64,000 nt of DNA from Chloroflexota bacterium (GTDB taxonomy: Bacteria; Chloroflexota; Anaerolineae; Anaerolineales; Villigracilaceae), in assembly GCA_016235425.1 (NCBI GenBank), contig JACRLC010000050.1, forward strand, positions 1 to 64,000, in the 5' to 3' direction. The notes under the pieces are model-generated. The model saw only the letters and a program-made list of their open reading frames with translations, did not search any database and was not told the DNA's origin. Position numbers and translations under genes: made by a program. Shown here piece by piece: positions 1-34,233 of the stretch (position 1 is its first letter; every line of letters starts with the position of its first letter).

Positions 1-132
1 ACCTGCCGCCAATCGAACGCACGCTACGTTCGTAAGACCTTATCGTTTTCAAAGTCCGATTTCTATCACGAACTGGTTACTCGACTATTTATCGTCCGCT
101 ACAATCTCGCCAAATCATCACTTTCAACTTAA
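1..132 (+). CDS. IS1-family transposase, C-terminal fragment (5' end outside window)
   Basis: Forty-three codons are open from base 1 to a TAA at 130-132. The peptide contains RKTLSFSKSDFYHEL followed by LFIVRYN, which resembles the conserved tail of IS1 InsB-type transposases (an RKTLSFSK-like block, then an aromatic Ile/Tyr-Asn end). The DDE catalytic residues would lie upstream, outside the window. The stop codon sits just inside the inferred terminal repeat, as is usual for IS1. The peptide is short, so the call rests on this one motif and on the matching disruption of the neighbouring permease. Confidence 0.55.
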   Translation, partial: TCRQSNARYVRKTLSFSKSDFYHELVTRLFIVRYNLAKSSLST

Positions 133-140
133 CCACTACC
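1..140 (+). mobile_element. Right end of an IS1-family-like insertion sequence, cut by window edge
   Basis: The element ends at base 140 with CACTACC, which read inwards on the minus strand is GGTAGTGGTTAAG. IS1-family terminal repeats usually start GGTnnTG, so this fits. The open frame inside (1-132) reads like the C-terminus of an IS1 transposase. The permease reading frame on the other strand is normal up to base 141 and then runs into the IS end, where it picks up Gly-Ser-Gly and a stop. The left end and any target duplication lie outside the window, so the family assignment is tentative. Confidence 0.6.
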
Positions 141-701
141 CAGGATCGTTACCAGTAAAGTGATGATCGAGACTGCCCAATTCGCACCTGCCATGCCCAA
201 TGCGGCGGCGGCCAGTCCGAAGCCGATGATCGCGGCCACAGAACCGGTGACGATGGGCGGCAGGACCATGTCAATCTTTTCCTTGCCCACGGCGCGGATG
301 ACAGCACCAATGAGGATATTGAAGACGCCGGTGACGATGATGCCGGCCTGCATCGTGCTGATGACTTCATCCGGTGCAGGCACGCCGAACTGCGGCAGGC
401 TCCCGGTCATTTGCTGGACGATGGCAAGGTACGCCGCAATGTAGCTGAAGCTGGAGCCATAGAACAGCGGAATAAATTTTCCAATCCGCCATCTTGCGAG
501 CAGTAAAGCGACTATCGTGCCGACGCCGGAAACGGTCAACACTGTGCCAACGTGGAAACCGCACAACGCGGCTACAAGCACCGTAGCCGGGAACATGGTC
601 AGCACGTGCTGAAATCCTAAAAGGACAAGCTGAAGGGGCGGGGGCACGTCATTGGGCAGGTATCCCATGACTTTACTTCTGTTTGCGTTTGACATTTTCA
701 T
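129..701 (-). pseudogene. NCS2-family xanthine/uracil permease, truncated by the IS end
   Basis: The 190-residue product matches the N-terminal part of nucleobase:cation symporter-2 proteins, which are normally about 430-480 residues. It begins with a short polar leader, has the LLGFQHVLTMFPATVLVA block of helix 1, and continues through about five hydrophobic segments to LPPIVTGSVAAIIGFGLA. The reading frame breaks at base 141, where the insertion sequence begins; the last three residues and the stop come from the IS. A transporter lacking its second half is unlikely to work. It lies divergent from the molybdenum-hydroxylase cluster, so the lost protein probably imported that pathway's purine- or pyrimidine-like substrate. 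Confidence 0.8.
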
Positions 702-1096: not shown

Positions 1097-1558
1097 ATGT
1101 TATTAAAAGGCGATGTTGAAATCCGTGCATCACGAAAACGAGTCTGGGATTTTCTTACCGACCCGAACCAGATCGGGCAATGCGTGCCTGGTGTCGAGAA
1201 GATCGAAATTATCGAGCCGAATAAAAAATATCGCGGAGTGGTATCTGTTGGGCTGGGGAGTGTGAAAGCCCGCTTTAGCGGCGAAGCGCAAATACTCGAG
1301 CTTGATGAACCCAGTCATGCAAAATTGAAGGCGCATGGCATTGCCACGGGCACTGCCGCGGATGTGGTCAGCGAAATGTTGTTGACCAGTGGGGCGAATG
1401 ACAGCACCTTCGTTCATTGGACGGCGGATGTGAATGTTTCCGGCCAATTGGCGAGCCTCGCGGCGCGGTTGATGTTGCCGGTTTCGCAGAAACTTTCCGA
1501 TCAGTTCTATGACGAAGTGCGCCGAAGGATAGAAAAGGAAGGGGCAGAGGCGGCCTAG
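1097..1558 (+). CDS. CoxG-like SRPBCC protein (molybdenum hydroxylase helper)
   Basis: This 153-residue protein of the carbon-monoxide-dehydrogenase subunit G family has the START/SRPBCC fold. The family signature is an N-terminal LKGDVEIRASRKRVWDFLTD block followed by the CVPGVEKIE strand. Family members are thought to help membrane recruitment or maturation of molybdenum hydroxylases; CoxG of Oligotropha has a C-terminal membrane-anchor tail, which this copy lacks since it ends soon after the last helix. The ATG follows an AAAGGGAAA ribosome-binding stretch. It opens the cluster, seven bases before xdhC, so it is probably the first gene of the operon. The family call is firm; its exact role here is inferred. 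Confidence 0.88.
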   Translation: MLLKGDVEIRASRKRVWDFLTDPNQIGQCVPGVEKIEIIEPNKKYRGVVSVGLGSVKARFSGEAQILELDEPSHAKLKAHGIATGTAADVVSEMLLTSGANDSTFVHWTADVNVSGQLASLAARLMLPVSQKLSDQFYDEVRRRIEKEGAEAA

Positions 1559-1565
1559 AGGAACG

Positions 1566-2627
1566 ATGCGCGATATCCTTACCGGCGTGGATCACTGGAT
1601 CAGGGATGATAAGCCAATCGCCCTGGCGACTGTCATTCAAACCTGGGGATCGTCGCCGCGTCGCGCGGGGGCCAAAATGGCGCTCGCCTCCGATGGGCAG
1701 TTCTCCGGCTCGGTCAGCGGCGGATGTGTGGAGAATGCGGTAATCGAAGCCGCGGTTGAATCGTTGAAGACAGATCAATCGCGGCTTTTGCATTTCGGCG
1801 TGGCCGACGAAACCGCCTGGGAAGTGGGATTGGCCTGCGGCGGAAGCATAGATATCTTTGTGAAACCGCTCGACCTGGATTTCTTTGAAATCCTGCGCTC
1901 CGCGTGGCTGGATGACCATCAGTCTGTGCATGTTACGGTGATACGCGGCGCGGCAAATATATTGGGGTGTGAAATGTTGATCCGTGAAGATGGTCAAGTG
2001 GCAAGGACGTTCAATGACAGGTGGGGAGGAAAAATTTTGGAATCGGCTAATGGAGCCTTATTGCACGGAAAATCCTGCCGCGCGGAATTGGATGCAGAGA
2101 CCGAAATTTTCCTGGAGTTCATTTCTCCACCGCCGACTCTCGTTGTAGTTGGAGGAGTCCATATTACGGTGGTGTTGATGTCGCTGGCAAAGACGCTGGG
2201 TTATCGCACGGTGGTCATTGATCCGCGTAAGGTGTGGGGAAACAGCGAGCGCTTCCCGAACGTGGATCAACTCATTCAGGCCTGGCCTGAAGAAGCGTTT
2301 CAGCAAATTAGATTAACGCGGTCAACGGCTGTTGTGATGCTCACACATGATCCAAAACTGGATGATCCTGCGTTGAAAATTGCACTCGCAAGCCCCGCGT
2401 TTTACGTCGGCGCGCTGGGAAGCAAAACGACAAACGCGAAACGTCGTGAGCGGTTATTGAATGATGGCCTAACCGAATCGCAACTGTCACGCCTGCACGC
2501 GCCCATTGGTTTGGACATCGGCGCCGAGTCGCCTGAGGAGATCGCGCTGGCGATCATGTCGGAGGTGGTGAATGCCTATCGAAGGCAGAGTCAATTTGAA
2601 GTCCAGAAAGAAGCGGTGGTCGAGTAG
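1566..2627 (+). CDS. XdhC/CoxI-family molybdenum cofactor maturation protein
   Basis: This 353-residue protein shows the XdhC_CoxI domain at the N-terminus (TWGSSPRRAGAKMAL and SVSGGCVENAVIEA) and the XdhC Rossmann domain at the C-terminus (VVVGGVHITVVLMSLAKTLGY, later VGALGSKTTNAKRRERL and APIGLDIGAESPEEIALAI). XdhC binds molybdenum cofactor, helps sulfurate it and inserts it into xanthine dehydrogenase-type enzymes in the cytoplasm. The usual start of the second domain is GaGHva; here it is GGVHIT, a mild deviation. The last codons (Val-Val-Glu-stop) come from an overlapping GGTGGTCGAGTAG repeat, so the natural C-terminus may have been altered. Confidence 0.92.
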   Translation: MRDILTGVDHWIRDDKPIALATVIQTWGSSPRRAGAKMALASDGQFSGSVSGGCVENAVIEAAVESLKTDQSRLLHFGVADETAWEVGLACGGSIDIFVKPLDLDFFEILRSAWLDDHQSVHVTVIRGAANILGCEMLIREDGQVARTFNDRWGGKILESANGALLHGKSCRAELDAETEIFLEFISPPPTLVVVGGVHITVVLMSLAKTLGYRTVVIDPRKVWGNSERFPNVDQLIQAWPEEAFQQIRLTRSTAVVMLTHDPKLDDPALKIALASPAFYVGALGSKTTNAKRRERLLNDGLTESQLSRLHAPIGLDIGAESPEEIALAIMSEVVNAYRRQSQFEVQKEAVVE

Positions 2628-2668
2628 TTCCGAGCCGTTCTGCGGCGAGGAATGTATCGAGATCACCA
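2616..2668 (+). repeat. GGTCGAGTAG...GTATCGAGATC palindromic repeat, copy 1
   Basis: The unit starts GGTGGTCGAGTAG and ends GTATCGAGATCACC, giving imperfect complementary ends. It overlaps the end of xdhC and supplies its stop codon. Copy 2 follows 30 bases later in inverted orientation. Confidence 0.6.
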
Positions 2669-2693
2669 GTTACAAATAAATATTCGTTACATG

Positions 2694-2740
2694 TTGGTCT
2701 CGATACGCCCTTCGGCAATCACTCAGGGCTACTCGACCAA
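2694..2740 (-). repeat. GGTCGAGTAG...GTATCGAGACC palindromic repeat, copy 2 (inverted)
   Basis: On the plus strand it begins TTGGTCTCGATACGCC and ends GGGCTACTCGACCAA. Its reverse complement matches copy 1 and the copies at 4113 and 12310. Copies 1 and 2 form a head-to-head pair filling the xdhC-coxM gap, a REP/BIME-like arrangement that could fold in the transcript. Confidence 0.65.
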
Positions 2741-2751
2741 CGGAGTTTTTT

Positions 2752-3636
2752 ATGAAACCTGCTCCATTTGAATATCACGTTCCCGATTCACTAGAACAAG
2801 CATTGGCTTTGCTGAAAGAGCATGGCGGCGATGCCAAATTGCTCGCGGGCGGGCAAAGCCTCGTGCCCGCCATGAATTTCCGTGTGGTTCAACCGGGTGT
2901 GTTGATTGATTTGAATCGTGTGAGTGAATTGGCTTACGTCAGGCAGGATGGAGAAAATTTACGCATCGGCGCAATGACCCGCGAGCGGACTTTGGAAATC
3001 GATCCTTTGGTTGCGAAGCAGTCTCCATTGCTGGAGGAAGCGATGCCGCACGTGGCTCATCCGCAAATCAGGAATCGCGGAACATTGGGAGGCAGTCTTG
3101 CAAATGCCGATCCCGCGGCGGAATTGCCCGTCATCATGCTGGCGTTGGGAGCGCGTCTTAAAGCGCGTAATGTTTCGGGGGAGCGTTGGATGGAGGCGCA
3201 TGATTTTTTCTCCGGCATGTTTACCACTGCGCTTGCTCCTGATGAAATCCTTGTCGAAATCGAATTGCCGCCTGATTTGCCTCACACAGGCTGGTCGTTT
3301 ATGGAAGTTGCGCCGCGTGCGGGTGACTATGCTTTGATGGGCGTGGCCGCGCAAGTGACGCTGGATGAAAATGGACGCTGCAGGCAGGCGCGGCTGGTGT
3401 ATCTCAATGCAGGAGATGGGCCGGTGGATGCGAAAGAGGCCGCAAAAATATTGGGAGGCGAAATGCCCAACGATGACGTGATCGAAGCGATGGCGGAGTT
3501 GGTGAGCCGGAAGGAGATCAATCCCTTTGGGAATATTCACGCTTCGTCAGATTTTCAACGACACCTGGCGGGGGTTTTGACGCGCAAGGCATTGAAACAG
3601 GCAATCGAACGCGCTGGTGAGGATGGTTTGCAATGA
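2752..3636 (+). CDS. Molybdenum hydroxylase FAD-binding subunit (CoxM/XdhB type)
   Basis: This 294-residue medium subunit carries FAD and passes electrons from the Fe-S subunit to the acceptor. The N-terminal FAD-binding domain shows AGGQSLVPAMNFRVVQP (the usual AGGQSLlP motif) and then HPQIRNRGTLGGSLANADPAAELP, the FAD pyrophosphate loop (TxGGSLxxADP). The C-terminal CO_deh_flav_C domain begins near residue 175. The start ATG follows ACGGAG at good spacing. Its stop overlaps the start of the 2Fe-2S subunit by four bases (ATGA), so the two are translationally coupled. The substrate cannot be read from this subunit. Confidence 0.93.
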   Translation: MKPAPFEYHVPDSLEQALALLKEHGGDAKLLAGGQSLVPAMNFRVVQPGVLIDLNRVSELAYVRQDGENLRIGAMTRERTLEIDPLVAKQSPLLEEAMPHVAHPQIRNRGTLGGSLANADPAAELPVIMLALGARLKARNVSGERWMEAHDFFSGMFTTALAPDEILVEIELPPDLPHTGWSFMEVAPRAGDYALMGVAAQVTLDENGRCRQARLVYLNAGDGPVDAKEAAKILGGEMPNDDVIEAMAELVSRKEINPFGNIHASSDFQRHLAGVLTRKALKQAIERAGEDGLQ

Positions 3637-4109
3637 AGCAGCTTTGTGCCGTAAACGTAACCGTGAATGGGGTTTCGTATCAACGCGAAGTGGAGCCGCG
3701 GCTTTTGTTGAGCGATTTCCTGCGACACGAACTTAACCTGACTGGCACTCACGTGGGTTGTGAGCATGGCGTCTGCGGTGCGTGCACAATTTTATTCGAT
3801 GGACAGTCCGTGCGTTCGTGCTTGATCTTTGCCGTGCAAGCCGATGGACATTCGGTTACGACGGTCGAGGGACTGGCAAAAAGCGTTGATCAATTGCATC
3901 CGCTTCAACAGGCATTCTGGGAAGCCCATGGACTGCAATGCGGTTATTGCACTCCCGGCATCCTGATGACCATGATCCCATTTTTGGAGGAGAATCCCAA
4001 CCCGACTGAAATGGAGATTCGGCAGGCGCTTTCCGGGAATTTGTGCCGTTGCACGGGATACCAGCACATTGTGGACGCGGTGAAGCTGGCGGCAGAGAAA
4101 ATGCGATAA
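3633..4109 (+). CDS. Molybdenum hydroxylase 2Fe-2S subunit (CoxS/XdhC-type small subunit)
   Basis: This 158-residue small subunit binds two [2Fe-2S] clusters. The plant-type cluster site is GCEHGVCGACTILFDG (Cys-x4-Cys-x2-Cys, with the fourth Cys in VRSCLIFAVQ). The second, alpha-helical cluster site is LQCGYCTPGILM plus NLCRCTGYQHIVDAV. All eight expected cysteines are present, so the protein looks functional. It overlaps the FAD subunit gene by four bases. The molybdopterin subunit gene is not adjacent but lies 5.8 kb downstream, so the enzyme's genes are split by the amidase, allF, allG and cyclase genes. Confidence 0.94.
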   Translation: MKQLCAVNVTVNGVSYQREVEPRLLLSDFLRHELNLTGTHVGCEHGVCGACTILFDGQSVRSCLIFAVQADGHSVTTVEGLAKSVDQLHPLQQAFWEAHGLQCGYCTPGILMTMIPFLEENPNPTEMEIRQALSGNLCRCTGYQHIVDAVKLAAEKMR

Positions 4110-4112
4110 CAA

Positions 4113-4168
4113 GTGGTGGTCGAGCAGCTCGAAGCGTTTTTGCTGAGGGCGTATCGAGACCATACCAC
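4113..4168 (+). repeat. GGTCGAG...GTATCGAGACC palindromic repeat, copy 3
   Basis: The unit starts GTGGTGGTCGAGCAG and ends GTATCGAGACCATACCAC, with complementary outer ends (GTGGT/ACCAC). It lies directly after the 2Fe-2S subunit stop and is followed at once by an AATTGGAGA tract. Confidence 0.6.
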
Positions 4169-4170
4169 AT

Positions 4171-4220
4171 GGTAATTGGTGAATTGGTAATTGGAGATTT
4201 GGAGATTTGAGATTGGAGAT
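4171..4220 (+). repeat. AATTGGAGATT-type repeat tract upstream of the amidase
   Basis: The tract is made of overlapping words GGTAATTGGT, AATTGGAGATT and GAGATTGGAGATT and ends one base before the amidase ATG at 4222. An in-frame TTG at 4207 lies inside the tract, which argues against it being the real start. No clear Shine-Dalgarno is present other than the GGAG words of the repeat, so the repeat may serve as the ribosome-binding site. Confidence 0.7.
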
Positions 4221-4221
4221 T

Positions 4222-5520
4222 ATGCGTCAGTACCAGATAATGGAGTCTTTGCGTTCCGGTCAATTGACACTTCCCGAATATCTCTCGCAAGTGGAGGCGC
4301 AATTTATCGAACGTGAACCATCTGTTATCGCGTTTATCCCTGAGGAGGATCGGTTCGCGCGCTTACACGATGACGCGGAGTCGCTTGTTGCGCGTTACCC
4401 CGATTCGATCAACCGTCCGCCGTTGTTTGGAATGATGGCAGGGATAAAAGATATTTTCCACGCGGAGGGGTTCGCGACTCAAGCGGGAAGCCGCCTGCCA
4501 TCCAAAGTGTTGCAAGGCGCTGAGGCTGAAAGCGTCTCGCGATTAAGAGACGCTGGCGCGCTGATTTTGGGAAAGACGGTCACAACAGAGTTTGCTTATT
4601 TTTCTCCCGGTCCCACGCGTAACCCGCATAACCCTGAGCACACTCCAGGAGGTTCGAGCAGCGGGTCAGCCGCGGCGGTCGCGGCGGGATATTGCAACCT
4701 TGCTCTCGGTACTCAAACAATTGGTTCGATCATCCGTCCTGCGTCTTTTTGCGGGGTGGTGGGGTTGAAGCCGACTTATGATCGTATTTCGCGGGAAGGT
4801 GTGATTCCACTTTCGCCTTCACTCGATCACGTTGGATTTTTCGCTCCCGATGTTTTTACCGCGCAACAAGCGGCTAGTGTGTTGTTTCGAGATTGGAGTG
4901 CAAAGAATAGAGATTGGAGATTGGAGATCGAAGATCGGAAGCCGATCATTGGAATCCCTGAAGGTGTGTACTTAAACTCCGCTTCAAGCGAGACCTTGAA
5001 CTGGTTCCGCTCAATTTGCCAATCCCTCACCGATGCGGGGTACAAACTAAGCCGCGTTTCGATCATGGACGATTTTCAGGCAATACGCAGCCGCCACGAT
5101 GTCATCATGTCTGCTGAAGCGGCGCAGGTCCATAAAGATTGGTTTGAAAAATACCGGGAACTTTATTCGGCAAAATTTACGGAGCTTATCAAACGCGGGC
5201 AGGAAATCTCCAATCTCCAATCCTCTCTTGGCGCGCGCGACGACTTCCGCGCCGAACTCAGGCGGGCCATGATTGATCATAATATTGACCTATGGATTTG
5301 CCCCTCCACGGTCGGTCCCGCGCCGAAAGGATTGGACAGCACAGGCGATCCCGTGATGAATCTTCCGTGGACGCAAGCGGGTCTTCCGGCCATCAATTTG
5401 CCAGCGGGCAAAAACCAGGATGACCTGCCGATGGGTTTGCAGGTGGTTGGTAATTGGTACAAGGATGAATCCTTATTGTTTTGGGCGAAGGATTTAGAGA
5501 AGGTCTTGGCTGACTTATGA
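4222..5520 (+). CDS. Amidase-signature family hydrolase
   Basis: This 432-residue serine amidase shows the Ser-cisSer-Lys triad: Lys in MAGIKDIFHAEG, cis-Ser in GGSSSGSAAAVAAG, and the nucleophile Ser in LGTQTIGSIIRPASFCGVVG. The family cleaves amide or ureido bonds in the cytoplasm. Its place between hydroxylase subunits and allF suggests it opens or deaminates the oxidised product. The ATG at 4222 (MRQYQIMESLRSGQLT) fits the family's start better than the TTG at 4207, which lies in a repeat. Two AATTGGAGA-type tracts lie inside the gene without breaking the frame (about 4908-4929, peptide RDWRLEIE, and 5204-5225, peptide EISNLQSS). The last four bases overlap allF. Confidence 0.9.
   Translation: MRQYQIMESLRSGQLTLPEYLSQVEAQFIEREPSVIAFIPEEDRFARLHDDAESLVARYPDSINRPPLFGMMAGIKDIFHAEGFATQAGSRLPSKVLQGAEAESVSRLRDAGALILGKTVTTEFAYFSPGPTRNPHNPEHTPGGSSSGSAAAVAAGYCNLALGTQTIGSIIRPASFCGVVGLKPTYDRISREGVIPLSPSLDHVGFFAPDVFTAQQAASVLFRDWSAKNRDWRLEIEDRKPIIGIPEGVYLNSASSETLNWFRSICQSLTDAGYKLSRVSIMDDFQAIRSRHDVIMSAEAAQVHKDWFEKYRELYSAKFTELIKRGQEISNLQSSLGARDDFRAELRRAMIDHNIDLWICPSTVGPAPKGLDSTGDPVMNLPWTQAGLPAINLPAGKNQDDLPMGLQVVGNWYKDESLLFWAKDLEKVLADL
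4891..4929 (+). repeat. AATTGGAGATT-type tract inside the amidase gene
   Basis: Words GATTGGAG and AGAGATTGGAGATTGGAGAT lie in frame and encode a charged segment (NRDWRLEIE) between two conserved blocks of the amidase. This looks like an insertion in a surface loop. A second, opposite-strand copy (AATCTCCAATCTCCAATCC) lies at 5204-5225. Confidence 0.6.
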
Positions 5521-7190
5521 CTGTCATAAAACATGATATCCGCCGCGGCGCTTATTATGACTCGGTTGTGCTGATGCAACTCCAGTGCGGGTTGATCGGC
5601 TTGCCCGGCATCATCGACGCGGGCGTCGTGATGGCAACCACTGCCAATTGTGAACTTCTCGCGGCAAACAATCTCCTGTCCGATTCCATCGCGGCCAGCC
5701 CGGACGATTTGCTGATCGTCGTCAAAGCGGAAAATGATTCATCCGCAAGCGAAGCAATTCGTCAAGTTGACTCATTGCTTGCCCGCCGTCGTTCGTCTGC
5801 TTCACAGGATTTTCGTCCGCGCAGTTTGAGCGCGGCGGTAAAGCAACTGCCAGATTCAAGTTGGGCGCTGATCTCTGTTCCGGGACGATACGCCGCGGCT
5901 GTTGCGCGTGAGGCGTTGGAACTGAATCAACATATTTTCCTTTACAGCGACAACGTCTCGCTCGAAGATGAAATTGCATTGAAGAAGACCGCTCGCGAAA
6001 AGGGACTCTTGGTGATGGGCCCGGATTGCGGGACGGCGATCATCAACGGTGTTGGCTTGGGATTTGCCAACCGCGTCCGCCGCGGACCGATTGGGCTGGT
6101 CGGCGCTTCGGGGACAGGACTCCAGGCTGTGACGTCTCACATCCACAACCTGGGTGGAGGCGTTTCCCACGCGATTGGCACGGGCGGGCGCGATCTCAAA
6201 TCTGAAGTCGGCGCGATTACCGCCCATCAAGCGCTCGATCTATTGGCGCGTGACCCTGAAACGAAAGTCATTGTGCTGATCTCGAAACCCCCTTCACCAG
6301 ATGTTGCAACGAAATTGCTTTCAGCCGCGCAAGCCACAGGCAAGCCCGTTGTCGTGGATTTCATCGGATATCCGCCTCCCGCCCGGAAATTAGGGAACTT
6401 GCATTTTGCGACAAGTTTGAGTGAAGCGGCGGAGCTTTCAATTAGAGAACTAGAGAATTGGAGACTAGTGACTAAAGAGTTGGAGTCCCCAGTGTCCAGT
6501 CTTTACTTACGCGGTCTTTTCTCTGGAGGCACTCTTGCCTACGAGACCCTCCTCAGCTTGCAGGCGAGTTTGTCCCCAATCTACTCCAATTCTCCAATCT
6601 CTAATTCTCAGGTTTTGCAGGACCCTCTTCACAGTGAATACCATACCATCATAGACCTCGGCGACGAGTTTTTCATGGTTGGTCGTTTGCACCCAATGAT
6701 TGACAATGATCTGCGGATTCGCCGTCTGAGGCAGGAGGCGGCTGATCCTGAAGTTGGAATGATTTTGCTGGATGTTGTTTTAGGCGAAGGCTCACACCCT
6801 GATCCTGCGGGGGAGTTGGCTCCTGTTATTAAAGAGGTAATCGGTAATTCGGGATTGATGATAGTGGCGATTGTGATTGGCACGGAGGATGACCCGCAAA
6901 ACCTTCAATCCCAGGTTGAACGATTGAGTGAAGCCGGCGCGGTTGTATTTCGCAGTGTGACCGAAGCGGTAAATCATGTCAGTGTGCATTTGAGCCGCCA
7001 CGCGAAAAACGAATTTCCACCTGTTACCCTTGATCGCTTTGCACAGCCTTTAGCGGCAATCAACGTTGGGTTGGAATCATTTTATGAGAGCCTGACATCG
7101 CAGGGCGCGCAAGCGATTCATGTGGAATGGCGTCCGCCCGCGGGCGGGAATGAAAAGCTGGCTTTGCTGCTGGCGAGGATGAAAAAATAG
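5517..7190 (+). CDS. FdrA/AllF-like protein, oxamate carbamoyltransferase-type subunit
   Basis: This 557-residue FdrA-family protein has tandem CoA-ligase-like Rossmann folds. Visible blocks are RGAYYDSVVLMQLQCGLIGLPG at the N-terminus, GLLVMGPDCGTAIINGVGLGFANRV, and a central LVGASGTGLQAVTSHIHNLGGG phosphate-binding loop, then SHAIGTGGRDL. In E. coli fdrA (renamed allF) with ylbE and ylbF (allG, allH) encodes oxamate carbamoyltransferase of allantoin breakdown; that is established work. Here allG follows directly. Two repeat tracts lie inside the gene in frame (6439-6500 and 6577-6611), adding ENWRLVTKELES and SNSPISNSQ in the linker between halves. The true substrate is unknown. Confidence 0.85.
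   Translation: MTVIKHDIRRGAYYDSVVLMQLQCGLIGLPGIIDAGVVMATTANCELLAANNLLSDSIAASPDDLLIVVKAENDSSASEAIRQVDSLLARRRSSASQDFRPRSLSAAVKQLPDSSWALISVPGRYAAAVAREALELNQHIFLYSDNVSLEDEIALKKTAREKGLLVMGPDCGTAIINGVGLGFANRVRRGPIGLVGASGTGLQAVTSHIHNLGGGVSHAIGTGGRDLKSEVGAITAHQALDLLARDPETKVIVLISKPPSPDVATKLLSAAQATGKPVVVDFIGYPPPARKLGNLHFATSLSEAAELSIRELENWRLVTKELESPVSSLYLRGLFSGGTLAYETLLSLQASLSPIYSNSPISNSQVLQDPLHSEYHTIIDLGDEFFMVGRLHPMIDNDLRIRRLRQEAADPEVGMILLDVVLGEGSHPDPAGELAPVIKEVIGNSGLMIVAIVIGTEDDPQNLQSQVERLSEAGAVVFRSVTEAVNHVSVHLSRHAKNEFPPVTLDRFAQPLAAINVGLESFYESLTSQGAQAIHVEWRPPAGGNEKLALLLARMKK
6439..6500 (+). repeat. AATTGGAGA-type tract inside allF-like gene
   Basis: Words AATTAGAGAACTAGAGAATT and GGAGACTAGTGACTAAAGAG lie in frame in the interdomain linker. 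A complementary tract (TCCAATTCTCCAATCTCTAA) follows at 6577-6611, also in frame. The two could pair in the mRNA. Confidence 0.6.
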
Positions 7191-7235
7191 AGAAGGAGAG
7201 AATTGGAGAATTCTCTAATCCTCCGATTCTCTCCT
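7191..7235. repeat. Palindromic AATTGGAGA/TCTCTAAT tract between allF and allG
   Basis: The tract reads GGAGAGAATTGGAGAATTCT and then CTAATCCTCCGATTCTCTCC, so its two halves are partly complementary and can form a hairpin right after the allF stop. Confidence 0.65.
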
Positions 7236-7251
7236 TCACACGGAGATGATT

Positions 7252-8496
7252 ATGGATATTGACAATGCAAACCAGAATGCCGTCGAACGAATGATGTCCG
7301 CCCGTCCCATTTTGAAAGGCGTTGTCACGGCGCGCGATGTAATCCCTGGTATGAAGGACAATCTTCTGCTCCATGCCGGCCCGCCGATTGAGTGGGCGCG
7401 GATGTCCGGTCCGTTGCGAGGGGCGTTGATCGGCGCGATGCTGTTCGAGGGGCTGGCAGCCAATGAAACGGAAGCAGTTGCCAGGGCGGAGAGAGGCGAG
7501 GTCGAATTCGACGCGTGTCACCATCATGGTGCGGTCGGTCCGATGGCGGGAGTCATCTCGGCTTCGATGAAAGTCTATGTGATTGAGAATGTCGAGCATG
7601 GAAACAAGTCATTTTCCAATTTGAATGAGGGCTATGGAAAGGTCCTGCGCTACGGCGCATACAGCGAGGATGTGCTGAAAAAACTGCGTTGGATGAACGA
7701 TGTGCTGGGTTCGGCTCTGGCTGATGCGCTTGCGCAATCGAACGGCATTGACATGCGTGCGCTGATCGCCGAAGCGCTGCACATGGGCGATGAGGGACAT
7801 AACCGTAACAAAGCTGGCTCGTTGATTTATCTCAAATTGATTTCACCATTGATTGCCAAAGTTGTAAAAGATGATGTTGTTGAATCGGAAGTGCTTCAAT
7901 TTATCGGGGACAATGCGCTGAGTGTTTTAAATCCTGTGATGGCGGCGTGCAAGGCGATGACCGACGCGGCGCATGGGGTGGAAGGAAGCACGATTGTCAC
8001 GACAATGGCGCGCAACGGCACGGACTTTGGAATCCGAGTCAGCGGGTTGGGGGAGAAGCAGTGGTTCACCGCGCCTGCTGAGATTCCGGTTGGCTTGTTC
8101 TTTTCAGGCTTCACGCAGAACGACGCGAATCCCGACATTGGCGATAGCGCCATCACAGAGACGGCAGGCATCGGCGGGTTTGCAATGGCGACCGCGCCAG
8201 CGATTGTCACGTTTGTGGGTGGCACACCAAAGGATGCGATGAATGCGACGCTTGAGATGTACGAGATCACTTTTGCTGAAAGTAAATACTTCACGATGCC
8301 ATCGCTTGATTTCCGCGGCACGCCAACAGGGATTGATCTTCGCAAGGTGGTTGAGTTGGGAATCGCCCCGCGCATCAACACTGGCATCGCACACAAGAAC
8401 GCGGGTGTGGGTCAAGTGGGGGCGGGGTTGGTGAGGCCGCCGCTTTCCATTTTTGAACAGGCGTTATTGGCTTATGCTGAGAAATATGAACTGTGA
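7252..8496 (+). CDS. YlbE/AllG-like protein (DUF1116), carbamoyltransferase subunit
   Basis: This 414-residue DUF1116 protein is related to E. coli YlbE (AllG). Recognisable blocks are LLLHAGPPIEWARMSGPLRGA near residue 45, CHHHGAVGPMAGVISASM near 85, the central HMGDEGHNRNKAGSLIYLKL and the C-terminal AHKNAGVGQVGAGLVRPPL. In E. coli the AllF/AllG/AllH trio transfers a carbamoyl group between oxamate and phosphate. The start at 7252 is preferred because CGGAG at 7241-7245 is spaced correctly for it, while an in-frame ATG at 7246 abuts that site. It shares the operon with allF; allH is about 12 kb away. Confidence 0.85.
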   Translation: MDIDNANQNAVERMMSARPILKGVVTARDVIPGMKDNLLLHAGPPIEWARMSGPLRGALIGAMLFEGLAANETEAVARAERGEVEFDACHHHGAVGPMAGVISASMKVYVIENVEHGNKSFSNLNEGYGKVLRYGAYSEDVLKKLRWMNDVLGSALADALAQSNGIDMRALIAEALHMGDEGHNRNKAGSLIYLKLISPLIAKVVKDDVVESEVLQFIGDNALSVLNPVMAACKAMTDAAHGVEGSTIVTTMARNGTDFGIRVSGLGEKQWFTAPAEIPVGLFFSGFTQNDANPDIGDSAITETAGIGGFAMATAPAIVTFVGGTPKDAMNATLEMYEITFAESKYFTMPSLDFRGTPTGIDLRKVVELGIAPRINTGIAHKNAGVGQVGAGLVRPPLSIFEQALLAYAEKYEL

Positions 8497-8497
8497 A

Positions 8498-8525
8498 AAA
8501 GAGAATTGGAGAATTCGTGGTTGGA
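8498..8525 (+). repeat. AATTGGAGA-type tract upstream of four-helix-bundle gene
   Basis: AAAGAGAATTGGAGAATTCG follows the allG stop; the adjoining TTGGAGGTTG provides the Shine-Dalgarno (GGAGG, 8523-8527) for the ATG at 8533. Confidence 0.55.
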
Positions 8526-8532
8526 GGTTGAT

Positions 8533-9018
8533 ATGCCGACAGCATTGGAAGATGTGAGAGTATTGAAGAACGCCGAGCAGATTGCGGATGCAATATACAA
8601 GATTGCCGCGCGGTGGGATGATTTTGCACGCGACGTAGTTGGTAAGCAGATTGCTCGTGCCGCTGACTCGGTCGGAGCGAATATCGCCGAGTCGTTTGGG
8701 CGTTTTCATTTCGGGGAGAAAATTCAATTTCTCTATTATGCTCGGGGCAGTGTGTTCGAAACAAAATATTGGCTTAATCGAGCGGCTGCGCGGGAGTTGA
8801 TGCTGTCCGCTGATTCACAAAGTTATGCAGCGCGCTTGACTGAGATTGCACGCCAACTTAATCTGTATGTTTCCAGCCTCAAAGGTCAACGCTCAGGCGA
8901 AATCACCGTTGCAAAGACCATCAAAGAAAACCCTGTCGAGTATGTTGTATCACGTCTCCCAGACGATTTTCCCAACGTGCTCTTTGACGAAACCGACTTT
9001 GCATGGCTCGAATCATAA
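8533..9018 (+). CDS. Four-helix-bundle protein (23S rRNA IVP / S23-like)
   Basis: This 161-residue member of the four-helix-bundle family was first noticed as ORFs in 23S rRNA intervening sequences. Typical parts are VGKQIARAADSVGANIAESFGR (helix 2) and KIQFLYYARGSVFETKYWLNRA (helix 3). The molecular role is unknown; related proteins such as Avd bind nucleic acid or reverse transcriptase. There is no catalytic link to the surrounding catabolic genes. It is bracketed by two AATTGGAGA tracts (8498-8525 and 9021-9058), which suggests it was inserted as a cassette. The C-terminal 35 residues beyond the bundle (FPNVLFDETDFAWLES) are not typical of the family. Confidence 0.85.
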   Translation: MPTALEDVRVLKNAEQIADAIYKIAARWDDFARDVVGKQIARAADSVGANIAESFGRFHFGEKIQFLYYARGSVFETKYWLNRAAARELMLSADSQSYAARLTEIARQLNLYVSSLKGQRSGEITVAKTIKENPVEYVVSRLPDDFPNVLFDETDFAWLES

Positions 9019-9020
9019 CC

Positions 9021-9058
9021 GTTCAATTCTCCAATCTCTAATTCTCAAATCTCTTTCC
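9021..9058 (-). repeat. AATTGGAGA-type tract between four-helix-bundle and cyclase genes
   Basis: The plus strand reads CAATTCTCCAATCTCTAATT then CTCAAATCTC; this is the reverse complement of the tract type found upstream of the four-helix-bundle gene. Confidence 0.6.
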
Positions 9059-9077
9059 CCACCCAAAGGAGTCCCTC

Positions 9078-9857
9078 ATGAAAATCTACGATTTATCCCA
9101 AGACCTCAATCAAGACTGTTCCTTTTGGCCCTTCTATCCGCCGTTTGAGGTGAAATATATCAAGCGCAAATCGGAGCACGGAGTCAACGCGCAGTATATC
9201 CAGACGTCAAATCACATGGGCACGCATCTCGACGCGCCGCGGCATTTTGTGACCAAAGGCAAGACGATTGATCAGATCCCGATTGAGTGGTGTTACGGTC
9301 CTGGCGTGATTGTTGACTTGAGCGACATGCTCGATGATGTAGGTCTCTTCACGCCCGAAGATATCGAGAAGCGCGCCGATGTGCAGGATGGCGATATTTT
9401 ATTTCTTCATACAGGCTGGCATAAGTATTCGTTCTTTGGCGAAGAAGCCGATGAAGAGAGATACATCCAGCGTCACCCAGGTCCGCATTTCAGCATTTGC
9501 GATTGGCTGTTGAAGAAGAAAATCCACATCTGGGGCGTGGACATGATCTCCACCGATCATCCGATGAACCTGCCAATCGGCCGCTTCCTCGGCAAAGGCG
9601 GATTGGAACACTGGCAGAAAGTCCGCGCGAAGGCGGAAGCCAAGTTTGGCGCTGACAAAATGGATGAGTTGTTCCCCGATTCGGCGTATCAACTGACTCA
9701 CAACGCCTTGTTCCCACGTGACTGCATCCACGTGGAGAATCTCGGCGGCGATATCGGCTTGAAAGAACTGCACAACAAGCGCATCACCCTCGGCGTCTTC
9801 CCATGGAAGTTCAAAGGCGGAGAGGCAGCGTTTTGCCGCGCGGTGGCGTGGGCGTAA
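9078..9857 (+). CDS. Cyclase-family (kynurenine formamidase-like) metal hydrolase
   Basis: This 259-residue protein of the cyclase family (PF04199) has the metal-binding signature HxGTHxDxPxHF seen as SNHMGTHLDAPRHFV near residue 45. A second conserved part, WGVDMISTDHP, provides further active-site residues. Relatives are arylformamidases, isatin hydrolases and cyclic-amide hydrolases, so it may open a ring or cleave an N-acyl bond of the oxidised heterocycle. The ATG follows AAAGGAG at ideal spacing. It lies in the operon between allG and the molybdopterin subunit gene. Confidence 0.9.
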   Translation: MKIYDLSQDLNQDCSFWPFYPPFEVKYIKRKSEHGVNAQYIQTSNHMGTHLDAPRHFVTKGKTIDQIPIEWCYGPGVIVDLSDMLDDVGLFTPEDIEKRADVQDGDILFLHTGWHKYSFFGEEADEERYIQRHPGPHFSICDWLLKKKIHIWGVDMISTDHPMNLPIGRFLGKGGLEHWQKVRAKAEAKFGADKMDELFPDSAYQLTHNALFPRDCIHVENLGGDIGLKELHNKRITLGVFPWKFKGGEAAFCRAVAWA

Positions 9858-9860
9858 AAC

Positions 9861-9925
9861 AAAATCTCCAATTCTCTAATTCTCACCCTCACGAGATTAG
9901 AGATTGGGGAGAATTGGAGAATTGC
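9861..9925. repeat. Palindromic AATTGGAGA/TCTCCAATT tract before coxL-like gene
   Basis: AATCTCCAATTCTCTAATTC is followed, after a short loop, by GATTAGAGATTGGGGAGAAT and TGGAGAATTG. The halves are complementary and can form a long hairpin right before the ATG at 9926, so it may affect translation of the large subunit. Confidence 0.7.
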
Positions 9926-12259
9926 ATGGCAACTCGATACTTCGGCGAACGGATCAAACGCAACGAAGACCCACGTCTGCTTACGGGGCAGGGATTATAC
10001 GTGGACGACGTGGATCTACCGAACATGCTCCATGCTGCTTTCGTGCGGAGTCCATACGCGCATGCAAAGATCAACAGCATTGATGTTTCGCAAGCCTTGC
10101 AACGCGAAGGTGTGGCTGCCATTTACACCGCGAACGATTTGGGCGATTACTGGAAGCCTGGTCCGCTGCTTGTTTCGCCGCCGCCCGTCAAGGACATTGT
10201 TTTCAATGAGAAGACGCAGGTTCCATTGGCAAAAGACAAAGTCAAGTTTGCGGGTGAGCCGATTGTGATGGTGCTGGCGGAGAGTCGCTACATCGCCGAA
10301 GATGCGTTAGCTGACATTCGAATAGATTACGAACCTTTGGAAGCCGTTGTTGATCTTGAGAAAGCAATTCAACCTGACAGTACTCTCATTCACGAAGAGA
10401 TTGGTTCAAACATCGCCGCACATGTGGTGCAGACGAAAGGTGATTACGACGCCGCGAAGAAGGATGCGGCATTGGTCATCAAGCGCCGATTCAGTTATGA
10501 GCACGGATGTGCCGCCGCCATCGAGAATCGCGGCATCGTCGCGGAGTGGGATTCACGCGCGGGACGATTAACCGTCTGGGACACCACGCAGGCGCCCGTT
10601 GTGATCCGAAACGGATTGGCGAACATGCTTGGGTTGTCGGAGCGACAAGTCCGCGTCATTGCGCCGTTCATTGGCGGTGGATTCGGTCCAAAGATCATGA
10701 TGTTCTATCAGGAGGAAGTGCTCGTCCCGTGGGTCGCGATGAAGTTGAACCGCCCCGTCAAATGGATCGAGGACCGCGCCGAAAATTTTGTCGCCACCAC
10801 ACACGAGCGCGGACAGATCCATGATGCGGAGATCGCGCTCGATAAAGACGGTCGCATTCTCGGCGTGCATGATGTCTTTTTGCATGACACGGGCGCGTAT
10901 GCCCCGTATGGTCTAACTGTGGCGCTTAACTCGCAAGCCAATGTGCTTGGGCTGTACGACATCCAAAACTATTACAGCGAGTTCACGGCGGTGTTCACGA
11001 ACAAGACCATCGTCACGCCCTATCGCGGCGCGGGACGTCAACATGGCGTGTTCGTCATCGAACGCTTGCTTGATCTCGCGGCGAAAGAACTCAAGATCGA
11101 CCGCGCCGAAATACGCCGACGCAATTTTATTCAGCCAGACCAATTCCCATACAACAACGAGATCATCTATCAGGATTTTGCACCGCTGGTGTATGACAGC
11201 GGAAACTACGAACCCTTGCTGGATGAAACGCTCGAACGAATCGGTTACCACAAATTCGTCAACGAGACTCAACCGAAGTTACGCGCCGAAGGCAAACATG
11301 TTGGCATTGGCATCGTCGCGTATGTGGAAGGCACAGGCATCGGCCCGTACGAAGGCGCGAAGGTGCAGGTCATGAGCAGTGGACGCGTCTCGGTCGTCAC
11401 GGGTGTTGGCACGCAGGGACAGGGTCACTTCACGAGTTTCGCGCAGATCGTCGCGGAGCAGCTCAGCGTGGATGTAAACATGATCGATGTTGTCACAGGT
11501 GACACTGACCAGTTCTATTGGGGCGCGGGGACGTTCGCCAGCCGCGGCGCGGTTGTCGCGGGCAATGCCATCAATGAAGCGGCGAAAGTTGTGCGCAAGA
11601 AAATTCTCAAACTCGCCTCCGAACATTTCAACGCGCCCGAAGATGAACTCGAACTCGCCGATGGCATGGTGAAAGTGCAGGACCTTCCGCGCATGTCCAT
11701 TTCGCTGGGTGAACTGGCGGGCAAGGCGAATCCGATGCGCGGCGCGGTCAAGCCCGGGACAGAGCCTGGTTTGGAAGCGACCAGCTATTTCGGTCCAGAA
11801 AGAGGCGCCACTGCCAGCGGCATCCACGCCATGATCGTGGAGGTCAACCCCGAGACGCTGCAAATCCACATCCAGAAATATCTCGTCGTGCACGATTGCG
11901 GCAAGGTCATCAATCCGCTGATCCTCGATGGGCAAATTCACGGTGGTGTTGCGCAGGGCATTGGCAATGCATTTTACGAGCGGCTCGCCTACGACGAAAA
12001 TGGGCAGCTGCTCAACGGCACGTTCATGGATTATCACCTGCCCACCAGCCTGGATGTGCCGCGCATCGAAACGGGACATGGCGTGACGCTTTCGCCGCTC
12101 AACCCGATGGGCGTGAAGGGCGCGGGCGAAGCAGGCGCGATCCCCGTTGGTCCGCTTTTTGCGCAGGCATTGGAAGATGCTTTGCACGATGTGGATTTTG
12201 AAATTCTAGAGATTCCGTTGAATTCAAATAGATTATGGGAATTGGTGAGTGGTAAGTAG
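9926..12259 (+). CDS. Molybdenum hydroxylase large subunit (molybdopterin-binding, CoxL/XdhA type)
   Basis: This 777-residue catalytic subunit binds molybdopterin and the substrate. It starts RYFGERIKRNEDPRLLTGQG, has the FVRSPYAHAKI block near residue 40, the IGGGFGPKIMMF loop near 250, YRGAGRQHGVF, and the C-terminal HDCGKVINPLILDGQIHGG and NPMGVKGAGEAGAIPVGP ending, which holds the catalytic Glu (GVKGAGE). I do not see the AYXCSFR loop of CO dehydrogenase form I, so it is probably a form II or aldehyde/xanthine-type enzyme. Upstream in-frame codons overlap the cyclase gene and a repeat; the ATG at 9926 matches the family start. Confidence 0.93.
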   Translation: MATRYFGERIKRNEDPRLLTGQGLYVDDVDLPNMLHAAFVRSPYAHAKINSIDVSQALQREGVAAIYTANDLGDYWKPGPLLVSPPPVKDIVFNEKTQVPLAKDKVKFAGEPIVMVLAESRYIAEDALADIRIDYEPLEAVVDLEKAIQPDSTLIHEEIGSNIAAHVVQTKGDYDAAKKDAALVIKRRFSYEHGCAAAIENRGIVAEWDSRAGRLTVWDTTQAPVVIRNGLANMLGLSERQVRVIAPFIGGGFGPKIMMFYQEEVLVPWVAMKLNRPVKWIEDRAENFVATTHERGQIHDAEIALDKDGRILGVHDVFLHDTGAYAPYGLTVALNSQANVLGLYDIQNYYSEFTAVFTNKTIVTPYRGAGRQHGVFVIERLLDLAAKELKIDRAEIRRRNFIQPDQFPYNNEIIYQDFAPLVYDSGNYEPLLDETLERIGYHKFVNETQPKLRAEGKHVGIGIVAYVEGTGIGPYEGAKVQVMSSGRVSVVTGVGTQGQGHFTSFAQIVAEQLSVDVNMIDVVTGDTDQFYWGAGTFASRGAVVAGNAINEAAKVVRKKILKLASEHFNAPEDELELADGMVKVQDLPRMSISLGELAGKANPMRGAVKPGTEPGLEATSYFGPERGATASGIHAMIVEVNPETLQIHIQKYLVVHDCGKVINPLILDGQIHGGVAQGIGNAFYERLAYDENGQLLNGTFMDYHLPTSLDVPRIETGHGVTLSPLNPMGVKGAGEAGAIPVGPLFAQALEDALHDVDFEILEIPLNSNRLWELVSGK

Positions 12260-12522: not shown

Positions 12523-12553
12523 TCTTATTGTATTTCTGAAAGGAGAGCAAAAA

Positions 12554-20943: not shown

Positions 20944-21870
20944 ATGCAATTCACTCAAGCCCTTTCCCTAACTCCCATTGTAAACAATTGGCTGGCGAAT
21001 TCGCGTCATCCGCGTATTTTGCACATCTTCGACCGCGCCTGCAATTTGATCAACGAGCGCAGGGAAGTTTTATCCATCGTCATGCCGCAAATCGGAAATG
21101 GCCCGTTCAATCTGGTTGTTGAAGACGATGTTTTCTTCTTCGATTACCTAAGTCTCCAATCTCCAGTCTCTAATTCTTCAGCTCAACTTACCCTCGGCGG
21201 CCTCACCATCCACACAGCGGACGCGAAACTCTGGTCTCCATCTCCCGATTGGGAAACATTGCATGCCAATAGGGATGATATTCTCAATCAATTATCGTCA
21301 TTGCGAGCGGCCCTGAGCGAAGCCGAAGGGGAGCGAAGCAATTCCCTCATCAATTTGGAGATTGCTTCGGGTGAGGTTTCGACGCAAAGCGTCTCAACCA
21401 CCGCCCTCGCAATGACATTACCAATTACCAATTACCTATTCTCTAATTCTCTAATCTCTGCTCTTGCAAACGCTGACCTTCCATCCTCGCTCACCGCCAC
21501 CCAAAAATTTGCTGGCTTAGGTGCTGGTCTCACTCCCGCATGCGATGACTTCATTCTCGGCGCAATTCTCGCGGCGTGGATCGTTCATCCGTATGAGGTT
21601 GCAAGCGTCCTTGCCAAAGAAATAACAGATGCCGCCGCGCCGTTGACCACGTCACTTTCGGCGGCGTGGCTGAGGTCCGCGGGGAAGGGTGAAGCGGGAA
21701 TTTTGTGGCATAATTTTTTCAACGTGCTGATTTCCGGTGATGCTGTGCAAATTCAAGAAGCGATTGAAAAAATTCTTGGTGTTGGAGAAACATCGGGGGG
21801 AGATGCGCTGGTGGGATTCATTAACACGCTGACGTGTTGGGCGGGATTGGCAAGTCCCGGAATCCCTTAA
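20944..21870 (+). CDS. DUF2877 protein, AllH-like carbamoyltransferase subunit
   Basis: This 308-residue protein carries the DUF2877 signature FAGLGAGLTPACDDFILGAI near residue 190. In E. coli YlbF (AllH) of this family acts with AllF and AllG in oxamate carbamoyltransferase. The partners here lie 12 kb to the left. About residues 118-178 are repeat-derived: a 120-bp GTCATTGCGAG palindrome gives LRAALSEAEGERSNSLIN to TTALAMT, followed by AATTGGAGA-type sequence giving LPITNYLFSNSLISALANA; a further tract at 21149-21179 gives SLQSPVSNSS. The frame is preserved through all three, so the protein may still be made but with enlarged loops. No paired carbamate kinase is in the window. Confidence 0.82.
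   Translation: MQFTQALSLTPIVNNWLANSRHPRILHIFDRACNLINERREVLSIVMPQIGNGPFNLVVEDDVFFFDYLSLQSPVSNSSAQLTLGGLTIHTADAKLWSPSPDWETLHANRDDILNQLSSLRAALSEAEGERSNSLINLEIASGEVSTQSVSTTALAMTLPITNYLFSNSLISALANADLPSSLTATQKFAGLGAGLTPACDDFILGAILAAWIVHPYEVASVLAKEITDAAAPLTTSLSAAWLRSAGKGEAGILWHNFFNVLISGDAVQIQEAIEKILGVGETSGGDALVGFINTLTCWAGLASPGIP
21149..21179 (-). repeat. AATTGGAGA-type tract inside allH-like gene
   Basis: The plus strand reads AGTCTCCAATCTCCAGTCTC then TAATTCT, in frame, encoding SLQSPVSNS. Confidence 0.55.
21297..21416. repeat. GTCATTGCGAG palindromic element inserted in frame in allH-like gene
   Basis: It is bounded by GTCATTGCGAG and CTCGCAATGAC, with inner GAAGCAATTCCC and GGAGATTGCTTCG. It is 120 bp long, exactly 40 codons, so the reading frame continues. 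Related copies are at 28322, 57165 and 57922. A tract of AATTGGAGA type (21419-21460) is attached to its right end. Confidence 0.8.
21419..21460 (-). repeat. AATTGGAGA-type tract next to the palindrome inside allH-like gene
   Basis: ACCAATTACCAATTACCTAT and TCTCTAATTCTCTAATCTCT encode PITNYLFSNSLIS in frame. Confidence 0.65.
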
Positions 21871-33363: not shown

Positions 33364-34233
33364 ATGAAGATTCACCTTGTGGATGGCACGTATGAGTTGT
33401 TCCGAAACCACTTCGGTGCACCGCCGAAAAAAGCTCCTGATGGCAGGGAGGTAGGCGCTACGCTCGGATTGGTGCGGAGCCTGATGCTGCTGTTGTCGAG
33501 CCCCGATGTGACGCATGTCGCCGTTGCCTTCGACCATGTGATCGAGTCGTTTCGCAACAAACTCTATGCGGGCTACAAAACAGGAGAGGGTGTTGATCCG
33601 AATCTGCTGGCGCAATTCTCACTGGCAGAAAAGGCAGTGTCCGCGCTTGGATTGGTGGTCTGGCCCATGGTCAAGTTTGAAGCGGATGATGCCATCGCCA
33701 CGGCGACCGCGCGTTTCAAGAAAGTCAAATCCGTGGAGCAGATTGTCATTTGCTCCGTTGATAAAGATTTGATGCAAATGGTGGATGGTGAGCGTGTCGT
33801 TTGTTGGGATCGTCGCCGTGAGATTATTCTTGATGAAAAAGGCGTGGTCGAAAAATTCGGTGTCAGCCCGGAGTCCATCCCGGATTATCTGGCGCTCGTC
33901 GGCGATTCAGCGGATGGCTATCCGGGCATCAAAGGTTGGGGCGCCGCCTCCACTTCCACCGTGCTTTCGCGTTTCAAGCACATCGAGTCCATTCCCAAAA
34001 ACCCAAATAAACTGGGGTTGGGATTGGGACGCGCAACCACACTGGTTGAAAACCTTCAACAAAACTATCAAGATGCCTTGCTCTTCAGGGAGCTGTCCAC
34101 ACTTCGCAAGGATGTTCCACTCAAAGAGAAACCCAGCGACCTGAAATGGCAGGGCGCAGACGAACGGCTGAAAAAGTTTTGCCGCGAATTAGGTGACGAG
34201 CGGATACCAGAGCGTATTTCGCGCTGGCGATAA
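33364..34233 (+). CDS. 5'-3' exonuclease (flap endonuclease / PolA N-terminal-like)
   Basis: This 289-residue stand-alone PIN-like 5' nuclease has the first metal Asp in KIHLVDGTYELFRNH. Next are the arch and metal residues FEADDAIATATARF and VICSVDKDLMQMVDG. The helix-hairpin-helix DNA-binding motif is VGDSADGYPGIKGWGAASTS. It probably removes RNA primers or flaps in replication and repair, in addition to the nuclease of DNA polymerase I. The typical length for stand-alone forms is 250-310 residues. It stands 12 bases before the acyl-CoA synthetase gene, which has no related function. Confidence 0.92.
   Translation: MKIHLVDGTYELFRNHFGAPPKKAPDGREVGATLGLVRSLMLLLSSPDVTHVAVAFDHVIESFRNKLYAGYKTGEGVDPNLLAQFSLAEKAVSALGLVVWPMVKFEADDAIATATARFKKVKSVEQIVICSVDKDLMQMVDGERVVCWDRRREIILDEKGVVEKFGVSPESIPDYLALVGDSADGYPGIKGWGAASTSTVLSRFKHIESIPKNPNKLGLGLGRATTLVENLQQNYQDALLFRELSTLRKDVPLKEKPSDLKWQGADERLKKFCRELGDERIPERISRWR

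Follow-up and report, generated by a model that had tools for sequence, protein, structure and literature searches.

A molybdenum hydroxylase operon interleaved with carbamoyltransferase genes in a Chloroflexota bacterium, and its possible role in pyrimidine base catabolism

Introduction

Bases 1-64,000 of a 69,702-base contig (JACRLC010000050.1) from the 5.0 Mb genome assembly of a Chloroflexota bacterium, a stretch called the window below, carry one tight, one-directional operon, which consists of coxG, xdhC, the genes of three molybdenum (Mo) hydroxylase subunits, and those of an amidase, AllF/FdrA, AllG, a 23S_rRNA_IVP protein and a cyclase-family hydrolase. Then, what could be the common substrate of such a gene set? 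Judged by sequence comparison, the operon, together with displaced allH and matB-like genes further downstream, may serve to break down a pyrimidine base, namely uracil or perhaps thymine, a reading that we hold tentatively, at a chance just short of even. The gene content and order, the protein families, the recurrence among genomes and the substitution of parts are reported below as observed.

Every substrate and every reaction in the following route is what we infer from these genes. The NCS2 permease, whose gene is broken in this assembly, would import the base, and the Mo hydroxylase, matured by CoxG and XdhC, would oxidise uracil or thymine to barbiturate. The cyclase-family metal hydrolase would open barbiturate to ureidomalonate, an acyl-urea like oxalurate, the phosphorolysis of which by AllFGH would give malonamate and carbamoyl phosphate. 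The amidase would convert malonamate to malonate and ammonia, and the ligase would convert malonate to malonyl-coenzyme A (malonyl-CoA). On chemical reasoning, the malonate acyl-urea that barbiturate yields suits an AllFGH-type enzyme after which a malonamidase and then a malonyl-CoA synthetase act; it should be noted that this idea was formulated before the malonamidase and malonyl-CoA-synthetase matches appeared. The preliminary description of this DNA had proposed ring hydroxylation, ring opening and release of carbamoyl phosphate, an outline to which the recurrent gene set and the part substitutions lend support, while its oxamate-like end point gives way to malonamate and malonate as the likelier one.

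The known oxidative uracil pathway comprises uracil dehydrogenase, barbiturase and ureidomalonase, and ureidomalonate is hydrolysed to urea and malonate. The intermediates proposed here would be the same up to ureidomalonate, with malonate again following. However, the barbiturase family PF09663 had no match in the window's own genome, in agreement with the preliminary description, which had reported no barbiturase, and carbamoyl transfer plus a malonamidase would replace the hydrolysis to urea and malonate.

According to PMC11326118, Escherichia coli AllFGH is a proven carbamoyltransferase that acts on the acyl-urea oxalurate. AllF, AllG and AllH are common to this allantoin system and the window, and carbamoyl phosphate is the expected product here. 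In contrast to E. coli, AllF and AllG lie inside a Mo hydroxylase operon with a cyclase and an amidase, no carbamate kinase (AllK) is linked, and the product is probably malonamate, not oxamate. AllFGHK adjoins triuret/biuret genes in nitrifier genomes according to PMC12625717, and the reductive uric acid pathway uses a different carbamoyltransferase according to PMC12507026. No description of the gene cluster as a set was found in the open-licence papers searched.

Gene content of the operon

The nine operon genes named in the preliminary description were found again at the same positions and on the same strand, with matching families (Pfam; NCBIfam for FdrA). Its block of genes in one direction stands, with the addition of an overlooked 23S_rRNA_IVP gene at 8506-9018. 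AllF and AllG do lie within the operon, and allH, which had also been overlooked, is located downstream at 20944-21870. Consequently, all three subunits AllF, AllG and AllH are present in the window. The intergenic gaps in 1097-12259 are -4 to 124 bp, the large-subunit start being taken as the ATG at 9926, which is likelier than the opening of the listed open reading frame at 9803. The features are as follows.

1097..1558, + strand: CoxG-like Mo hydroxylase accessory protein (PF06240, 94 bits)
1566..2627, + strand: XdhC/CoxI maturation factor (Pfam)
2752..3636, + strand: Mo hydroxylase flavin adenine dinucleotide (FAD, medium) subunit (Pfam)
3633..4109, + strand: Mo hydroxylase 2Fe-2S (small) subunit (Pfam)
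4207..5520, + strand: amidase-signature hydrolase, malonamidase-like (Pfam; best PDB match malonamidase E2, 157 bits; motif GTQTIGSIIRPA)
5517..7190, + strand: AllF/FdrA, carbamoyltransferase subunit (NCBIfam NF004760, 531 bits, cut-off 433)
7246..8496, + strand: AllG, carbamoyltransferase subunit (PF06545, 312 bits)
8506..9018, + strand: 23S rRNA-intervening-sequence (four-helix) protein (PF05635, 90 bits)
9078..9857, + strand: cyclase-family metal hydrolase, candidate ring opener (PF04199; motif NHMGTHLDAPRHF)
9926..12259, + strand: Mo hydroxylase molybdopterin (large) subunit (Pfam, NCBIfam, motif)
20944..21870, + strand: AllH, third carbamoyltransferase subunit (PF11392, 79 bits, cut-off 25)
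33364..34233, + strand: 5'-3' exonuclease, linked in relatives
34245..35786, + strand: malonyl-CoA-synthetase-like acyl-CoA ligase (75% identity to the operon-adjoining gene of locus L037)

The window cyclase keeps the HxGTHxDxPxHF motif (NHMGTHLDAPRHF), several positions of which vary in relatives, and its kin in the PDB are kynurenine formamidase and isatin hydrolase. The 23S_rRNA_IVP gene is repeatedly found between allG and the cyclase gene, for example in the window and in the loci L034, L037, L039 and L048, as well as in others. For this gene, the exonuclease gene and the NmrA-like genes no catabolic role is proposed.

Amidase and ligase

A malonamate/malonate end fits the sequences better, and an oxalurate/oxamate end looks less likely, because the amidase is nearest to malonamidase E2 and the ligase to malonyl-CoA synthetase. 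Among solved structures the amidase matches malonamidase E2 (1ock) best, followed by GatA with 144 bits and biuret hydrolase with 125 bits, and its residues K81, S150, S174 and R177 align with the Lys-Ser-Ser triad and the Arg at Ser+3 of malonamidase E2. This Arg presumably binds the carboxylate in malonamidase E2, and the roles of the triad residues are likewise assumed. Ser+3 Arg was found in 29 of the 32 amidases scoring at least 426 (some genomes are present in two collections); the three exceptions belong to the clusters of L047 and L079 and to L088, a locus where a Mo hydroxylase is not seen.

The nearest solved relative of the window ligase is the malonyl-CoA synthetase MatB (4fuq, 402 bits), and oxalate-CoA ligase reaches 304 bits. 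Among the NCBIfam models compared, the malonyl-CoA synthetase model PRK07514 was the best with 553.7 bits (cut-off 558). At E <=1e-150 the ligase gene occurs in 8 of 61 genomes of the family, seven of which also carry AllG, and the eighth is 65% complete; since AllG is present in 21 of the 61, the one-sided Fisher test of the link gives p = 0.0016 with shared ancestry ignored. An extra ligase copy lies at a contig end in L150, outside the eight genomes. The ligase gene adjoins allH and the large-subunit gene in L034/L163, L035, L037 and L161. For the cluster ligases of L181 (541 bits) and L211 (Thermoanaerobaculia, 488 bits), malonyl-CoA synthase is likewise the best model (cut-off 558), and that of L191 is of the long-chain fatty acid type.

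Identity of the hydroxylase

The large subunit of the window has PYRGAGR where CoxL of carbon monoxide (CO) dehydrogenase (8uem) has YACSFR, and the Glu of GxGE is kept. We take RGAGR and GxGE to be marks of a form-II-type active site, and both are found here. The three subunits, the form-II-type motif and the accessories CoxG and XdhC are shared with CO dehydrogenase (CODH) form II/BMS-type enzymes, such as quinoline 2-oxidoreductase (1t3q), from which the window hydroxylase differs in that its genomic partners are ureide enzymes. The Cys loop of the Cu-Mo site, characteristic of aerobic CO dehydrogenase (form I), is missing. A CO dehydrogenase identity, which the preliminary description had named as a possible objection, was rejected on this motif. 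A C-[SG]-[FY]-R loop was found in none of 93 long large subunits.

Recurrence across genomes

AllG is present in 71 of 400 genomes of the phylum (81 rows), and 60 stretches of at most 20 kb each out of these rows were examined, in which a Mo hydroxylase was called if the large subunit scored above 300 bits or both small subunits were present. A Mo hydroxylase was found in 28 of the 60, a cyclase in 25 and both in 24, while 12 further stretches from the family contain a Mo hydroxylase in 7 and a cyclase in 9 cases. For 80 loci from named genomes the corresponding numbers are 57, 60 and 51 (both), a set biased by a query alignment built from Mo-associated AllG. Some stretches stop at a contig end, so that the absences make these counts lower bounds.

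The nearest named relatives of the window AllG are from Chloroflexota metagenome-assembled genomes (MAGs), of which several belong to Anaerolineales. In a tree built from 72 AllG proteins, nine changes are required to explain the Mo association, or six if three loci that show a double cyclase but no hydroxylase are included. The window AllG falls in a clade of 22 rows (support 100/100), 19 of which have a hydroxylase in view and the other three a double cyclase. Therefore, several regions of the tree show the pairing with a Mo hydroxylase. This pairing is also found in Acidobacteriota-type MAGs (L184, L199, L201, L211, L217), Gemmatimonadetes (L175), Bacillota (e.g., Alkaliphilus transvaalensis L245 and Anaerosolibacter L231), Thermomicrobium (L244) and Caldiserica-labelled MAGs (L235, L236, L239), and the interleaved gene order is conserved across genomes (L037, which equals L172 by gene scores, and other relatives).

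Substitution of parts

Window-type operons have the amidase-signature enzyme as their C-N hydrolase and, where an acid activator is seen, the AMP-forming ligase in that role. In L032, L033, L036, L040 and L153, a nitrilase-family hydrolase and a double cyclase are found, with a class III CoA-transferase as the activator, and mixed sets of amidase and CoA-transferase occur in L047, L079 and L242. Within the phylum, 29 loci with a Mo hydroxylase or cyclase can be compared with 31 other loci. A ligase or CoA-transferase is present in 9 of the former and none of the latter, as is NCS2 (9/29 versus 0/31); an amidase or nitrilase is present in 13 versus 2, and an isochorismatase in 0 versus 9. The Fisher p-values for these traits (0.0007, 0.0007, 0.002 and 0.0008) were obtained with shared ancestry ignored, the profiles built from the same loci and the locus traits chosen after their table had been seen.

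We also observed AllFG clusters without a Mo hydroxylase in view that carry genes for a carbamate kinase and an isochorismatase-family hydrolase (L059, L061, L073, L080, L081, L087, L088, L090), most of them with AllH and PucR as well. These form a separate context, perhaps of the allantoin/oxalurate or biuret type.

Displaced genes and interrupted permease

In L037, allH directly follows the large-subunit gene, and the exonuclease and ligase genes come next; in the closest relatives, allH and the ligase gene come immediately or almost immediately after the operon. The window keeps the order large subunit, allH, exonuclease and ligase, with inserts of 8,684 and 11,493 bp. The G+C content of the first insert (12400-17400) is 0.41, compared with 0.53 for the operon. 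In L160, which belongs to the same genus, allH lies about 7-8 kb from the exonuclease/ligase pair, and the ligase gene has one internal stop codon.

The low-G+C insert (12494-17336) codes for a MazE-like antitoxin with a PIN-domain protein, a GHKL ATPase, a protein of 188 amino acids (aa) without an assigned family, and a protein that combines an RNA polymerase alpha-CTD with sigma-70 region 4. Weak PADLOC matches in this insert are to MzaA (15.8 bits), MzaB (24.5 bits) and a type II restriction model (34 bits).

Two further features lie upstream of the operon.

1..142, unstranded: IS1-like element end at the contig start (first 128 bp identical in contig C64)
129..701, - strand: NCS2 nucleobase permease, N-terminal fragment of 190 aa (PF00860, 55.9 bits)

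The NCS2 permease gene is indeed divergent from the operon, as had been described; it is not intact, since the N-terminal 190 aa alone are encoded here. A C-terminal part lies at the end of contig C51, from which an InsA Zn-ribbon runs off (31 bits, cut-off 26), and both contig ends share the 8-bp flank CAGGATCG, a pattern that fits an IS1-type insertion. Therefore, in this assembly the permease gene is interrupted by an IS1-like element, which splits it between contigs C40 and C51; the same element end recurs at the start of C64 (positions concerned: window 1-142, L096 14600-14799, L098 1-142). L034, L035, L037 and L039 have longer NCS2 homologues (462-512 aa), again in divergent orientation to the operon.

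Evidence against the pyrimidine reading

Several results weigh against the pyrimidine reading. The first concern the acid end. Malonamidase E2 is ahead of GatA by just 13 bits, and in the clusters of L047, L079 and L175 (276 bits) the amidases carry the Arg at +2 instead, as do the amidases compared from family f31 (described below). The ligase and permease scores are below the NCBIfam cut-offs, no ligase is in view near the window-type operons L038, L039 and L048, genome G337 (L039) has no ligase gene at E <=1e-150, and an exonuclease without an apparent role stands beside the ligase.

Secondly, a carbamate kinase was not found in the own genome, where the best partial match is 28.8 bits against a cut-off of 358; on the same model the carbamate kinase of the L046 cluster reaches 347, and six other Mo clusters contain this enzyme (L064, L070, L075, L076, L083, L089). 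Biosynthetic use is one possible fate of carbamoyl phosphate in the host.

Thirdly, the role of the cyclase as a barbiturase is questionable. PF09663 occurs in 18 of the 400 phylum genomes, never on an AllG contig, and only 5 of the 18 have AllG at all. In 17 PF09663 neighbourhoods (all except that of G095), neither AllF nor AllG was found, and the neighbours include a large subunit of at least 900 bits in 13, a cyclase in 11, NCS2 in 7 and a MatB-profile ligase in 6. For example, in family f31 (L121, L124, L126, L129, L133), PF09663 and amidase genes are convergent to a permease-ligase-cyclase-Mo hydroxylase cluster without AllFG. A second ring-opening enzyme in this cluster counts against the cyclase as barbiturase. 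Moreover, the PF09663 protein of L129 reaches 370 bits to 5hy0, which we take to be a class V enzyme with no assigned substrate, and 224-293 bits to the cyanuric acid hydrolases and barbiturase 5hwe (224 for the latter). The PF09663 link was dropped as proof of barbiturate, because the L129 copy is nearest to 5hy0 and the family is never on an AllG contig. On the other hand, the best model for the L129 permease is RutG (391 bits, cut-off 759), and for its ligase it is malonyl-CoA synthase (413 bits against a cut-off of 558). By sequence likeness, this supports a substrate of the pyrimidine kind for the hydroxylase and cyclase that the two cluster types have in common.

In addition, the five Acidobacteriota-type loci have no match to cyclase, PF09663 or dihydropyrimidinase in view even at E 1e-3, and consequently the cyclase is not a general ring opener. 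An amidase is present at high score in four of these five loci. Finally, a tree-based pair test of ligase/CoA-transferase, NCS2 and isochorismatase had four independent pairs and no power, so all the above Fisher p-values, that of the ligase link included, are inflated by relatedness, and the profiles behind them came from the same loci.

Alternative explanations

Could the substrate be another N-heterocycle or a xenobiotic cyclic ureide, such as a modified pyrimidine, a dihydropyrimidine, a purine-derived or a drug-like ring, that is degraded by the same logic? We regard this as unlikely. An RGFG-type motif replaces the RGAGR type in 17 of the 93 large subunits, for example in L043, L051 and L146 as well as in L224, L229, L231, L232, L233, L235 and L240 of Bacillota and Caldiserica. 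The same AllFG/cyclase core is thus combined with different hydroxylases, which may have different substrates. The transporters also differ between clusters (NCS2, Bmp-type proteins, NCS1), the Acidobacteriota-type loci do without a cyclase, and dihydropyrimidinase/hydantoinase-family genes are found in some clusters: all six proteins that were checked are over the cut-off (two in L048, where no ligase is in view, and one each in L049, L176, L197 and L212). What speaks for a pyrimidine instead is the recurring link to malonyl-CoA synthetase, barbiturate being the malonyl-urea ring, and the RutG match of the L129 permease.

A further observation on these genes comes from Caldilineaceae and similar MAGs (L197, L209, L210, L212, L214), where nitrilase-type and dihydropyrimidinase genes follow the AllFG/cyclase/Mo hydroxylase cluster, calls that were profile-checked for L197 and L212.

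A hydantoin-type ring could also be oxidised to parabanate and opened to oxalurate, which would be cleaved to oxamate and carbamoyl phosphate, with oxalate and oxalyl-CoA as later products. Oxalurate and oxamate are the substrate pair proven for AllFGH (PMC11326118), the title of a 1965 paper cited in PMC3364942 names parabanic acid as inducing an oxamate transcarbamylase, and D-hydantoinase-family genes adjoin some clusters. The CoA-transferases of L047 (364 bits) and L242 (380 bits) are best matched as the CoA:oxalate type, and for L245 and L238 the succinate-glutarate and CoA:oxalate models are within 8 bits. However, six of the eight cluster CoA-transferases are best matched as the succinate-glutarate type, all eight being under every cut-off, and those of L245 and L033 reach 366 and 386 bits to the human-type succinate-hydroxymethylglutarate CoA-transferase but 336 and 252 bits to YfdE. 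Oxalyl-CoA decarboxylase is over the cut-off in none of 20 genomes, namely the own genome (best 226 bits versus 739) and 19 further cluster-bearing genomes, while one control genome was over it in each search. With a ligase closer to malonyl- than to oxalyl-CoA synthetase and a malonamidase-like amidase, the oxalate end point is not favoured, in spite of partly thin CoA-transferase margins, and we consider the oxalurate route rather improbable.

That the hydroxylase is an aldehyde or CO enzyme interleaved by accident with unrelated ureide genes is very improbable. In its favour, 'CODH group 5' and glyceraldehyde dehydrogenase are the closest models in NCBIfam, with scores below their cut-offs. 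Against it, the CO-dehydrogenase Cys loop is absent, the motif is of the form II type, the interleaved order is conserved across genomes, and the Mo association changes nine (or six) times on the AllG tree.

Implications

Returning to the pyrimidine reading, its wider form would be a phosphorolytic pyrimidine route with a form-II-type uracil dehydrogenase, a barbiturase of the cyclase type that has no kinship with the known enzyme, and an AllFGH specific for ureidomalonate, distributed over several phyla and including some anaerobes. This is plausible, with the balance of chances somewhat against it. If true, the operon would provide gene candidates for a uracil/thymine dehydrogenase and a new barbiturase, and the AllFGH family would gain a second substrate. 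The f31 cluster with PF09663 may in turn reveal the substrate of the 5hy0-type enzyme class. Annotations of metagenomes would also be corrected, where such operons may carry the labels CO dehydrogenase, glyceraldehyde dehydrogenase or acyl-CoA synthetase FdrA, taken from the models closest to them. For the organisms concerned, it would mean a pyrimidine pathway that keeps the carbamoyl phosphate bond and delivers malonyl-CoA.

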